A DNA stretch of 64,000 bases from Buttiauxella agrestis (GTDB lineage: Bacteria; Pseudomonadota; Gammaproteobacteria; Enterobacterales; Enterobacteriaceae), in the NCBI RefSeq assembly GCF_900446255.1, contig NZ_UIGI01000001.1:1-64000 (forward strand). The letters run 5' to 3'. Shown here piece by piece: positions 61,812 through 63,745 of the stretch. The notes beneath the pieces were generated by a model that was not told where the DNA came from, ran no database searches, and saw nothing but the letters and a program-made list of their open reading frames with translations. The position numbers were made by a program, and so were the translations under genes. How positions within the stretch are numbered: the stretch's first letter is position 1; every line of letters begins with the position of its first letter.

Positions 61812-62291
61812 ATGGCGAATTTAACATATTTAACACTTGTCGGACAAAATCAGGGAAAAATCTCAGCGGGTTGTATGTCGCTGGACTCTGTGGGAAATAA
61901 AGCACAAATTTCCCATCTGGATCAGATTCTTATTTATGAATTAACTCACGCCATTTCCCGCGATCAAAATGCTTGTCATCACCCGGTTATAATCACCAAA
62001 CCTATTGATAAATCTTCACCTTTACTTGGCAAGGCTATTTCTGAGAACGAGATTTTGACATGCGATTTCGATGTCTATATGACAAATAAATTTGGTATTA
62101 ATGAATTGTTCTACAAAATAAAGCTAACTCAAGCCCGAATGACTGATATTCATCTGACACTACCCAATAATTTAAGTGACCCTAACGGACAACCGCATGA
62201 GGTAATATCACTTTCCTATGAAACCATAACATGGGAACATTGTACCGCAGGAACCAGTGCATATAGTTTGTGGAGCGACCGAGTCTATTAA
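61812..62291 (+). CDS. hcp: Hcp-family type VI secretion tube protein
   Basis: A 159-residue Hcp/TssD protein forming hexameric rings of the T6SS tube, which also carry small effectors. Diagnostic segments are YLTLVGQNQGKISAGCMSLD near the start, HHPVIITKPIDKSSPLLGKA and the C-terminal SYETITWEHCTAGTSAYSLW. AAAGGAG precedes the ATG. No tssB, tssC or other T6SS core gene is in the window, so it is an orphan hcp with an effector gene directly downstream. The AT-rich base use differs sharply from the bcs genes. Confidence 0.93.
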   Translation: MANLTYLTLVGQNQGKISAGCMSLDSVGNKAQISHLDQILIYELTHAISRDQNACHHPVIITKPIDKSSPLLGKAISENEILTCDFDVYMTNKFGINELFYKIKLTQARMTDIHLTLPNNLSDPNGQPHEVISLSYETITWEHCTAGTSAYSLWSDRVY

Positions 62292-62386
62292 ATATCATTA
62301 AAATAAATATTTGAAATTCCATTCATAAGTTATTTTTATAAATGCAATTTCACGGCAAGGAAAGTTGTCATCATTGAGAGGATGCA

Positions 62387-63148
62387 ATGTTACATTTTGT
62401 AATGGACTATGCAAAAAGAGATGTGAAGAGTAAGAGACTAAAACTCAATTGTGGTCGGTTAGGCCAGTTCGATGTATTAAGCGGCCAGGAACCTTATACC
62501 AATATCCCAGAATGTTCATTTAAAAGCGGGACTGCTATCCCTCCGGGTAAATACTGGATCGTTGATCGGCCCGTAGGGAGTTTGAAGAATAGGGCAAGGG
62601 CGACATTTATTGATTTGTGGAAAAATACATTTATTAGTGGTGAAACGCCCTATCATCAAAACTGGTTTGGTTTATTCAGTGACAAAACAATGAGTAATGA
62701 ACTCCCTGTTTATAATAAAATAAGAAGTGCTTTTTGCCTGCACCCATTAAATGCTGATGGAAGTGGTGTATCTGAGGGGTGTATTACTTTTTATAGTGTG
62801 CCTGATTTTTTATTTGTCAGAAGAGCACTATTACACCAGAGGAAAACTAAGGTGTTTGCAGTTGGTCAAAAACTAGAAGTTTATGGTTACATTCATGTAA
62901 TAAATAATCCGACCATCCATGATGACTATAAAAATGGAAATTTGCCCGATCCCCATAATTTTTTCACAGAGTCTTTAGGTATTGATGATTATAATAATTT
63001 ATTGCAAAGAGGCGAGGTGAGCAACGCATTGTTACGAGAGAATGCCTGCTATGGGCAGGCTGCAGATGATTTTCGGACATTTAGAGAACAACATAATAAA
63101 TCTGAGTCAGATCTAAGAACGGGTGTTTCCATTACCATTATAAAATAG
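62387..63148 (+). CDS. Tlde1-like L,D-transpeptidase T6SS effector (DUF2778)
   Basis: A 253-residue protein with the DUF2778 arrangement: TAIPPGKYWIVDRPVGS, NWFGLFSDKT and the catalytic stretch CLHPLNADGSGVSEGCITF with His119, Ser129 and Cys132, matching the HxxxxxxxSxGC pattern of L,D-transpeptidase-related effectors. In Salmonella, Tlde1 acts in the target periplasm by cutting and altering peptidoglycan stem peptides. No signal peptide, as expected for T6SS cargo. It follows hcp by 95 bp and precedes a membrane protein by 12 bp. The tail after about residue 185 is not recognised. Confidence 0.85.
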   Translation: MLHFVMDYAKRDVKSKRLKLNCGRLGQFDVLSGQEPYTNIPECSFKSGTAIPPGKYWIVDRPVGSLKNRARATFIDLWKNTFISGETPYHQNWFGLFSDKTMSNELPVYNKIRSAFCLHPLNADGSGVSEGCITFYSVPDFLFVRRALLHQRKTKVFAVGQKLEVYGYIHVINNPTIHDDYKNGNLPDPHNFFTESLGIDDYNNLLQRGEVSNALLRENACYGQAADDFRTFREQHNKSESDLRTGVSITIIK

Positions 63149-63160
63149 AGCTAAGTCTTG

Positions 63161-63745
63161 ATGAAAATTATTATAAAACCTTATTTTTTGTTTTTTGGTT
63201 TGACGACTTCTATGCTGAGTGTTCTTTCTATAGTGTTTTATTTTAGAGACTTGACTCTATGGGTGTGCACTAAATGGAAACAACAAGCTGATATATTCGA
63301 TAGGGTCTGCGATTTTTTCCAACTCGGTGTTACATGTTATTTTTTATATGGTTTTTTGTTCATGCCAGTTTTTTATATTATTATAAATAATATAGCGAAT
63401 AAGTTTATTAATGCTAATGAAAAGAAACAATCTACAATTAAGCGTTTGTTTGTGCGGTCGTGTTATTACACATTTGTTTATATTATTAGCGTCAGTATAA
63501 TGTCTTTAGCACTTATGATCCTTATGTATTTATTACCTCTGGACCTTATGTTTGATGATTTATATCATACCATGAAGAAGGAATACGGTTGGTATAGTGG
63601 TGGAGTATATGATTTTAATCCTCTGTTCGCTGATTTCTTAATATTTGTGCATACCATTTTACCTCTTTCTATTTGTCATGCCATTTCAAAGACCCTGAGG
63701 GAAACCCTCTCTGGAGATCCTTCACCTGAAAATGAGCAGGAATAG
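63161..63745 (+). CDS. Polytopic membrane protein, probable immunity protein
   Basis: A 194-residue protein with four likely transmembrane helices, around residues 8-28, 55-78, 105-130 and 163-185. I do not recognise the family. Its place 12 bp after the effector, same strand and same AT-rich composition, point to an immunity protein guarding the cell against the Tlde1-like enzyme. Such a toxin acts in the periplasm, which fits a membrane location, though known Tlde1 immunity proteins may not be polytopic. The ATG at 63161 is preferred over a TTG one codon upstream. Confidence 0.65.
   Translation: MKIIIKPYFLFFGLTTSMLSVLSIVFYFRDLTLWVCTKWKQQADIFDRVCDFFQLGVTCYFLYGFLFMPVFYIIINNIANKFINANEKKQSTIKRLFVRSCYYTFVYIISVSIMSLALMILMYLLPLDLMFDDLYHTMKKEYGWYSGGVYDFNPLFADFLIFVHTILPLSICHAISKTLRETLSGDPSPENEQE

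Follow-up and report, generated by a model that had tools for sequence, protein, structure and literature searches.

An orphan Hcp cassette in Buttiauxella agrestis with a Tlde1-like effector, an unfamiliar C-terminal tail and a four-helix immunity candidate

Tlde1a and Tldi1a are an effector and its immunity protein from the SPI-6 type VI secretion system (T6SS) of Salmonella Typhimurium (PMC9638812; PDB 7uma, 7uo3, 7uo8). We compared this pair with a three-gene cassette encoding an orphan Hcp, a Tlde1-like effector and a four-helix membrane protein. The cassette was found between the cellulose (bcs) operon and pdeK in a stretch of 64,000 nucleotides of Buttiauxella agrestis (the window; NZ_UIGI01000001.1, positions 1 to 64,000). 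Both effectors share the L,D-transpeptidase-like fold, as predicted for the Buttiauxella one, their active-site His and Cys align, and each is encoded with an immunity gene, a candidate one in the cassette. The two effectors are 17-18% identical in the structural alignment; Tlde1a has His129, whereas the Buttiauxella effector has Glu130 and an extra tail of 77 residues. Tlde1a is encoded in a T6SS island and the Buttiauxella effector behind an orphan Hcp, and the descriptions of Tldi1a mention a Sec signal, in contrast to the four helices of the Buttiauxella immunity candidate.

For Pantoea (PMC3942780) and Klebsiella (PMC12469244), copies of tssD and vgrG have been described that lie away from the T6SS clusters and adjoin putative effectors; 11,544 of the 14,160 tssD genes in the Klebsiella set are located outside the T6SS locus. 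The available parts of these two accounts name no Tlde1 cargo in such orphan islands, and, unlike those islands, the nearest Buttiauxella genome appears to be without a T6SS core. In Pseudomonas aeruginosa, Hcp carries cargo effectors of up to 44.4 kDa (Tse3), a size range that includes the Buttiauxella effector with its estimated ~29 kDa (PMC8262886). Binding to Hcp was tested there by pulldown, whereas for the Buttiauxella effector it is a proposal, and what is available of that account is silent on effector genes behind an orphan Hcp. Tse1 enlarged by 30 kDa is reported to be no longer secreted (PMC8262886), so extensions are not always tolerated. The order and strand of the cassette recur at locus L136 of another Enterobacteriaceae genome (G376), which encodes an Hcp of 159 amino acids, 88 bases upstream, followed by a Tlde1 protein of 177 and a two-helix protein of 75 amino acids. 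This Tlde1 protein falls in the sister clade of the Buttiauxella effector; it differs by having no tail, and its two-helix immunity candidate has no phmmer link to the four-helix protein. No Buttiauxella T6SS cassette is named among the literature matches listed, which covered titles and abstract openings, with subscription journals outside the scope.

The cassette consists of three intact genes without internal stops, all on the forward strand, which follow bcsZ (its last base is 61665) and precede the pdeK region (Table 1). The names bcsC, bcsD, bcsZ and pdeK are presumed ones, in part the labels of an earlier reading of the same letters (the original prediction), rather than assigned by a tool. 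That reading described three AT-rich genes on one strand, as the open reading frame (ORF) calls and the GC contents of 0.38 (hcp), 0.38 (effector gene) and 0.32 (membrane-protein gene) confirm; the four preceding genes have 0.51-0.57. The block containing the cassette aligns without gaps to B. agrestis ATCC 33320 (NZ_JMPI01000071.1; G001 in our genome numbering), the nearest genome, with 96.8% identity over 3,866 aligned bases, and the ORFs of the cassette are open there as well. We regard the association of Hcp, effector and immunity candidate as confirmed, and as more than chance.

Substitution rates between the window and ATCC 33320 were estimated with NG86 from few changes and carry no significance test. 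The nonsynonymous (dN) and synonymous (dS) rates were 0.018 and 0.120 for hcp (dN/dS about 0.15), 0.008 and 0.137 for effector residues 1-167 (about 0.06), 0.025 and 0.122 for residues 168-253 (about 0.20), and 0.022 and 0.044 for the membrane protein (about 0.50, few changes); bcsZ gave 0.005 and 0.122 for comparison. It looks as if hcp, the Tlde1 domain and the tail are constrained, the membrane protein less clearly so. Promoter and terminator scans of the cassette gave no signal above shuffled sequence.

The 159-residue protein is a true member of the Hcp (TssD) family by profile search, as had been predicted: it matches TIGR03344 with 183.5 bits (cut-off 58.9, E 2.8e-54) and Pfam T6SS_HCP with E 8.2e-19. 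Its B. agrestis orthologue is 96.2% identical. The next-closest Hcps, at loci L108 of G010 (78.6% identity), L102 of G008 (76.7%) and L087 of G005 (76.1%), all share a contig with TssC, at a distance of ~18 kb, and therefore we believe that the orphan Hcp is of the T6SS cluster's own type. In G010, hcp comes after two long ORFs that we take to be T6SS genes. Locus L108 (G010:C2:121500-132000) is the end of a T6SS cluster and contains one intact Hcp of 159 amino acids, one truncated Hcp, and a relative of the membrane protein that is broken. It also holds, on the other strand, two related effector/immunity-like pairs identified by eye, one of them partly decayed, and on such a reading the region resembles an eroding array of cassettes of this sort.

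The effector matches Pfam Tlde1_dom (PF10908) over residues 27-156 with 77.5 bits against a cut-off of 30.1. This profile match confirms the prediction of a DUF2778, L,D-transpeptidase-like enzyme, DUF2778 being the older name of the same model. The predicted structure has the L,D-transpeptidase fold seen in Tlde1a by structural alignment. His119, Ser129 and Cys132 are present as predicted, and the columns of H119, S129, G131 and C132 show no variation in 41 of 41 enterobacterial Tlde1 ORFs of at least 155 amino acids. H119 aligns with the active-site His of Tlde1a (H121 in PMC9638812), and the active-site Cys likewise lines up. With a predicted catalytic His and Cys and a Ser before x-G-C, the protein belongs to the Tlde1 domain family, for which L,D-carboxypeptidase activity, exchange of D-amino acids and toxicity in the periplasm are predicted. 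PMC9638812 gives the Tlde1 motif as HXX14-17-(S/T)HGCh. As E130 stands in place of H129 of Tlde1a and breaks this motif, the effector is labelled here as a Tlde1-domain (Tlde1-like) protein and not as a strict Tlde1. Judging by the H129A result in PMC9638812, an enzyme with Glu130 would be expected to favour exchange over cross-linking. Position 130 is W in 16 of the 41 rows, E in 12, D in 8, L in 2, N in 2 and H in 1, so that the second His of the published motif occurs in a single enterobacterial row, the others having Trp, Glu, Asp, Leu or Asn.

Beyond the Tlde1 domain, 77 residues remain. The tail had been placed from about residue 185; family similarity in fact stops at about residue 175-177. 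Within the searches made, the tail is known in the window and ATCC 33320 only. These two were the sole carriers when residues 173-253 were compared with the ORFs of the fetched Buttiauxella regions, and residues 168-253 as a query matched one of 394 Enterobacterales genomes, that of B. agrestis. The whole effector, searched in 392 Enterobacteriaceae genomes, found its B. agrestis orthologue as the only tail-bearing relative among the matches listed, and none of the other genomes among the 12 of Buttiauxella has a Tlde1 match extending into the tail. Six exact peptide patterns in one scan of genome contigs, a method that detects close relatives only, again gave just the orthologue. The Tlde1 domain was found in 131 plasmid records, none covering 80% of the effector query, and in 3 phage records; among the matches listed (for plasmids the best 20 of 131), none runs past residue 179. 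One plasmid match to residues 168-253 (E 0.6) was discarded as being at chance level. The tail has no Pfam match above cut-off and no fold match, and is predicted to be helical at low confidence (ten-residue means of the predicted local distance difference test, pLDDT, of 41-60 from residue 181 onward). As a guess, it might serve loading on this Hcp or alter specificity.

In a tree of 41 Tlde1 proteins, the window and ATCC 33320 effectors form a pair on a branch of length 0.97, sister to 8 proteins with a support of 92/91 that is below the star threshold of the tree program. The gene downstream of each of these 8 encodes a two-helix protein of 71-75 amino acids, and all of these fall in one similarity cluster. 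Four of the 8 (L141 and L144-L146) carry their own shorter, charged C-terminal extension, that of L145 being judged from its sequence end since L145 is absent from the alignment of L141, L144 and L146. Phmmer found no link between these extensions and the tail of the effector.

The membrane-protein gene starts 12 bases after the effector stop, with an alternative TTG start at 63158. This gap and four hydrophobic stretches support the predicted four-helix membrane protein in the immunity position: like an immunity protein, it is encoded directly downstream of the effector and has a predicted envelope location. It matches no Pfam family above cut-off, and no relative is listed in NCBIfam or PHROGs or was found in plasmids. 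Among the proteins encoded downstream of Tlde1 genes at 44 loci, it clusters by phmmer with its B. agrestis orthologue only, and there is no phmmer link at 1e-3 to the proteins of three to four helices at other Tlde1 loci. Apart from the orthologue, one relative is convincing, the broken one in G010 (G010:C2:130119-130517), which is 29% identical over 131-133 residues, has a further piece in another frame, and sits in the T6SS cluster behind the truncated Hcp of the same class. One of the stretches conserved between the two is GWY(S/T)G-YDF(N/D)P, in the loop that leads into the last helix. From the loop charges (6 Lys plus Arg in loop 78-99; 2 Lys plus Arg and 5 Asp plus Glu in loop 124-154), we read this stretch as probably periplasmic. 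Other candidate relatives were rejected. A third match of the family search (G200, E 6e-4) contains three stops and was treated as chance, and so were the 8 matches outside B. agrestis (E 0.001-0.009) among the 9 found in 394 genomes of the order at E ≤0.01; 6 of these 8 contain stop codons.

Table 1. Features of the orphan Hcp cassette, in positions of the window
Feature	Position	Strand	Basis
hcp (tssD), predicted tube/carrier protein, 159 aa	61812..62291	+	TIGR03344, T6SS_HCP
Effector gene, 253 aa	62387-63148	+	Tlde1_dom PF10908
Tlde1 (L,D-transpeptidase-like) domain of effector, residues 1-176	62387..62914	+	
Predicted catalytic His119 of effector	62741..62743	+	Invariant column, aligned with Tlde1a active-site His
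S129-E130-G131-C132 motif, C132 the predicted nucleophile	62771..62782	+	S, G and C invariant
Effector C-terminal tail, residues 177-253, predicted helical (low confidence)	62915..63148	+	
Four-helix membrane protein, immunity candidate, 194 aa from ATG	63161..63745	+	Hydrophobic stretches, position
GWYSGGVYDFNP segment, membrane-protein residues 143-154, loop before last helix	63587..63622	+	Alignment of two remote relatives

Eleven of the 12 Buttiauxella genomes together hold 63 Hcp genes, 61 of which were examined with their flanks. Thirty of the 61, the B. agrestis orthologue included, are of the same class as the orphan Hcp (at least 140 bits against it by phmmer), and 24 of these 30 adjoin, on either side, an effector-sized ORF and then a membrane-protein ORF under a loose mechanical rule. 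Ten of 15 listed Hcp neighbours were scanned: three have DUF4225, one an M23 peptidase with a peptidoglycan-binding domain, and six no family. PMC13185608 cites DUF4225 genes, each with the gene that follows, as effector-immunity pairs of T6SS. A Tlde1-type match is present in 93 of 392 Enterobacteriaceae genomes. In the 44 loci taken as a subset of the full match list, in which L006 and L018 picked the same gene and a few entries are fragments, a protein with at least two hydrophobic stretches follows directly at 40 and an Hcp lies within the flanks at 23. Orphan Hcp cassettes with an effector and an immunity candidate are an ordinary kind in this family. What is new here is the tail and the four-helix immunity candidate, the two parts singled out in the original prediction, neither of which belongs to a known family; the arrangement itself is not new.

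Other Hcp neighbours were noticed in passing. At L077, L096 and L108, an Hcp of 159 amino acids is followed or flanked by a member of one family of proteins, 290-304 amino acids long and containing hydrophobic stretches. The member scanned (L077) has no Pfam match; this is possibly another T6SS toxin family. Two further Hcp-linked proteins without a Pfam match were judged by eye: L080:5785-6330 (-) has an HEMMH stretch resembling that of a metallopeptidase, and L081:2604-3368 (-) has a lysozyme-like appearance.

Taken together, the gene order, the families, the predicted catalytic fold, the conserved active site, the same arrangement elsewhere and the kinship of the Hcp lead us to read the cassette, with a probability of roughly 80%, as an auxiliary T6SS module (orphan Hcp) with a Tlde1-type effector and membrane immunity. 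Hcp would form the rings of the tube and hold the 253-aa effector, as for Hcp-linked cargo, and a T6SS would fire both into the periplasm of a neighbour. In that compartment, the Tlde1-type domain would use Cys132 as its nucleophile, together with His119, to cut the meso-diaminopimelate-D-Ala bond of tetrapeptide stems and also to exchange the terminal D-amino acid. Cell-wall homeostasis would then fail, with swelling and death of the target, as described for Tlde1a. The four-helix protein in the inner membrane of the producer would shield it, probably via the periplasmic loop before the last helix.

Several observations weigh against this reading. Glu130 stands where the published Tlde1a motif has its second His, and by sequence profile the effector matches the solved Tlde1a weakly (E 0.026). 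Neither the tail nor the membrane protein has a family; the structure model of the latter is poor (pLDDT 50.6), and its constraint is the weakest of the cassette (dN/dS about 0.5, few changes). No Tlde1 remnant is detectable between the truncated Hcp and the membrane-protein remnant of G010. Six of the 30 same-class Hcps fail even the loose neighbour rule, and the pair lies on the other strand in 5 of the 24 that pass. Finally, TssB, TssC and TssM were not detected in ATCC 33320, and its G010-type T6SS site is empty; the module may therefore be idle in that strain.

This last point calls for an account of the core genes. As predicted, none was seen nearby among the long ORFs of the window, whose starts were read by eye with no full scan by hidden Markov models. 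The window ends 255 bases past the cassette, and further downstream the view is of the orthologous ATCC 33320 stretch, as ORF sizes. TssB and TssC are present in 10 of the 12 Buttiauxella genomes and in neither ATCC 33320 nor G002; TssM (PF06761), searched in these two only, was found in neither. Neither Hcp nor VgrG gave a match in G002. ATCC 33320 has 8 Hcp genes, 6 of them with cargo-and-membrane-protein neighbours, and 6 VgrG matches, of which 3 exceed the cut-off (loci L065, L075-L081 and L171-L175). The original prediction had named a genome without a T6SS core, with the cassette absent from T6SS-positive relatives, as telling against it. Taken literally, the nearest genome is such a case: ATCC 33320 carries the cassette, TssB, TssC and TssM were not found in it, and in no other genome of the genus does a Tlde1 match reach the tail. 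What stands is the T6SS kinship of the Hcp and the membrane protein: we keep the T6SS reading because the nearest Hcps lie ~18 kb from TssC and the membrane-protein relative is in a T6SS cluster, but present-day delivery is uncertain because the nearest genome has the cassette and no detected TssB, TssC or TssM.

The main rival is that the cassette is a stranded relic, once a working T6SS cargo module whose machine was lost or never kept. This overlaps with the auxiliary-module reading except that the genes would be idle, either not yet lost because too little time has passed, or kept for the protection that the membrane protein still gives against neighbours with a T6SS. It is quite possible, though we would not bet on it. 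The 8 Hcp genes and 3 above-cut-off VgrGs of ATCC 33320, where no TssB, TssC or TssM was detected, point to it, as does the 30.8-kb T6SS insertion of G010, which corresponds to 0.87 kb in ATCC 33320 with collinear flanks on both sides. However, this absence concerns a single site, since T6SS clusters of other species, such as that of G005, lie elsewhere; the ATCC 33320 assembly is a draft (about 90 contigs), and the core search covers that strain rather than the window's own assembly. Moreover, all three ORFs are intact in both the window and ATCC 33320, and the low dN/dS of hcp and the Tlde1 domain speaks for use.

Another explanation makes the tail a second functional part, which would either be toxic in its own right or offer a new surface for the immunity protein to bind. 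It would have been acquired along with the unrelated four-helix protein, as immunity to the tail and not to the Tlde1 domain. The long branch (0.97), next to 8 proteins that all have related two-helix immunity candidates of 71-75 amino acids, is consistent with this, and the tail and the four-helix protein occur together and nowhere else intact in the searches made. Yet the tail has only 77 residues, helical at low confidence and without a fold or family match, and four of the 8 sister proteins have shorter extensions without detectable kinship to it, which suggests that tails come and go. Other Tlde1 subclades (L010, L015 and L155), furthermore, have immunity candidates of three to four helices without a tail, and we consider this explanation rather unlikely.

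That the genes functionally belong to the bcs operon or pdeK, in cell-wall or cellulose work rather than T6SS, is suggested by their shared strand directly after bcsZ but is hardly credible given the absence of the cassette at this site in 9 of 9 other bcs-positive Buttiauxella genomes, the GC drop from 0.51-0.57 to 0.32-0.38 and like cassettes at many other loci.

A bcs match was found in 10 of the 12 Buttiauxella genomes, and ATCC 33320 is the one that has the cassette at the junction. In 5 of the 9 others, the bcsZ-side and pdeK-side alignments are 61-175 bases apart; in 4 (L066, L067, L068 and L071 of G005, G007, G009 and G012), the junction holds 521-593 bases with a different small gene, by eye presumably encoding a DUF559-type protein. 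Such variation among the 10 genomes marks the junction as a place where genes have been gained or lost, and the different small gene in 4 of 9 makes it a small insertion hotspot. The cassette had been called mobile, which is supported only in the sense of a history of gain or loss; a boundary does not appear, as the repeat search found no useful repeats at its ends and no integrase was seen by eye among the long ORFs of the window. The same DNA was not found in E. coli.

A bolder combination would be that the toxin was re-specified by the tail together with a swap to four-helix immunity, and that the lineage keeps 8 Hcps without a T6SS core of its own. We think this improbable. If true, a helical tail would have been gained and a two-helix immunity protein replaced by an unrelated four-helix one, giving a new kind of effector-immunity pair, and coreless cassettes would be a store of immunity genes, or Hcp and effectors would be used by some other route. 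Since its catalytic domain can be recognised while its tail and immunity candidate cannot, the cassette would allow a direct test of how toxins of the Tlde1 type come to change their immunity. Orphan Hcp cassettes hold a large store of interbacterial toxins, few of them tested so far, and ATCC 33320, in which 8 Hcps were found but not TssB, TssC or TssM, offers a convenient natural example of cassettes that outlive the secretion machine, and of the question why they do.
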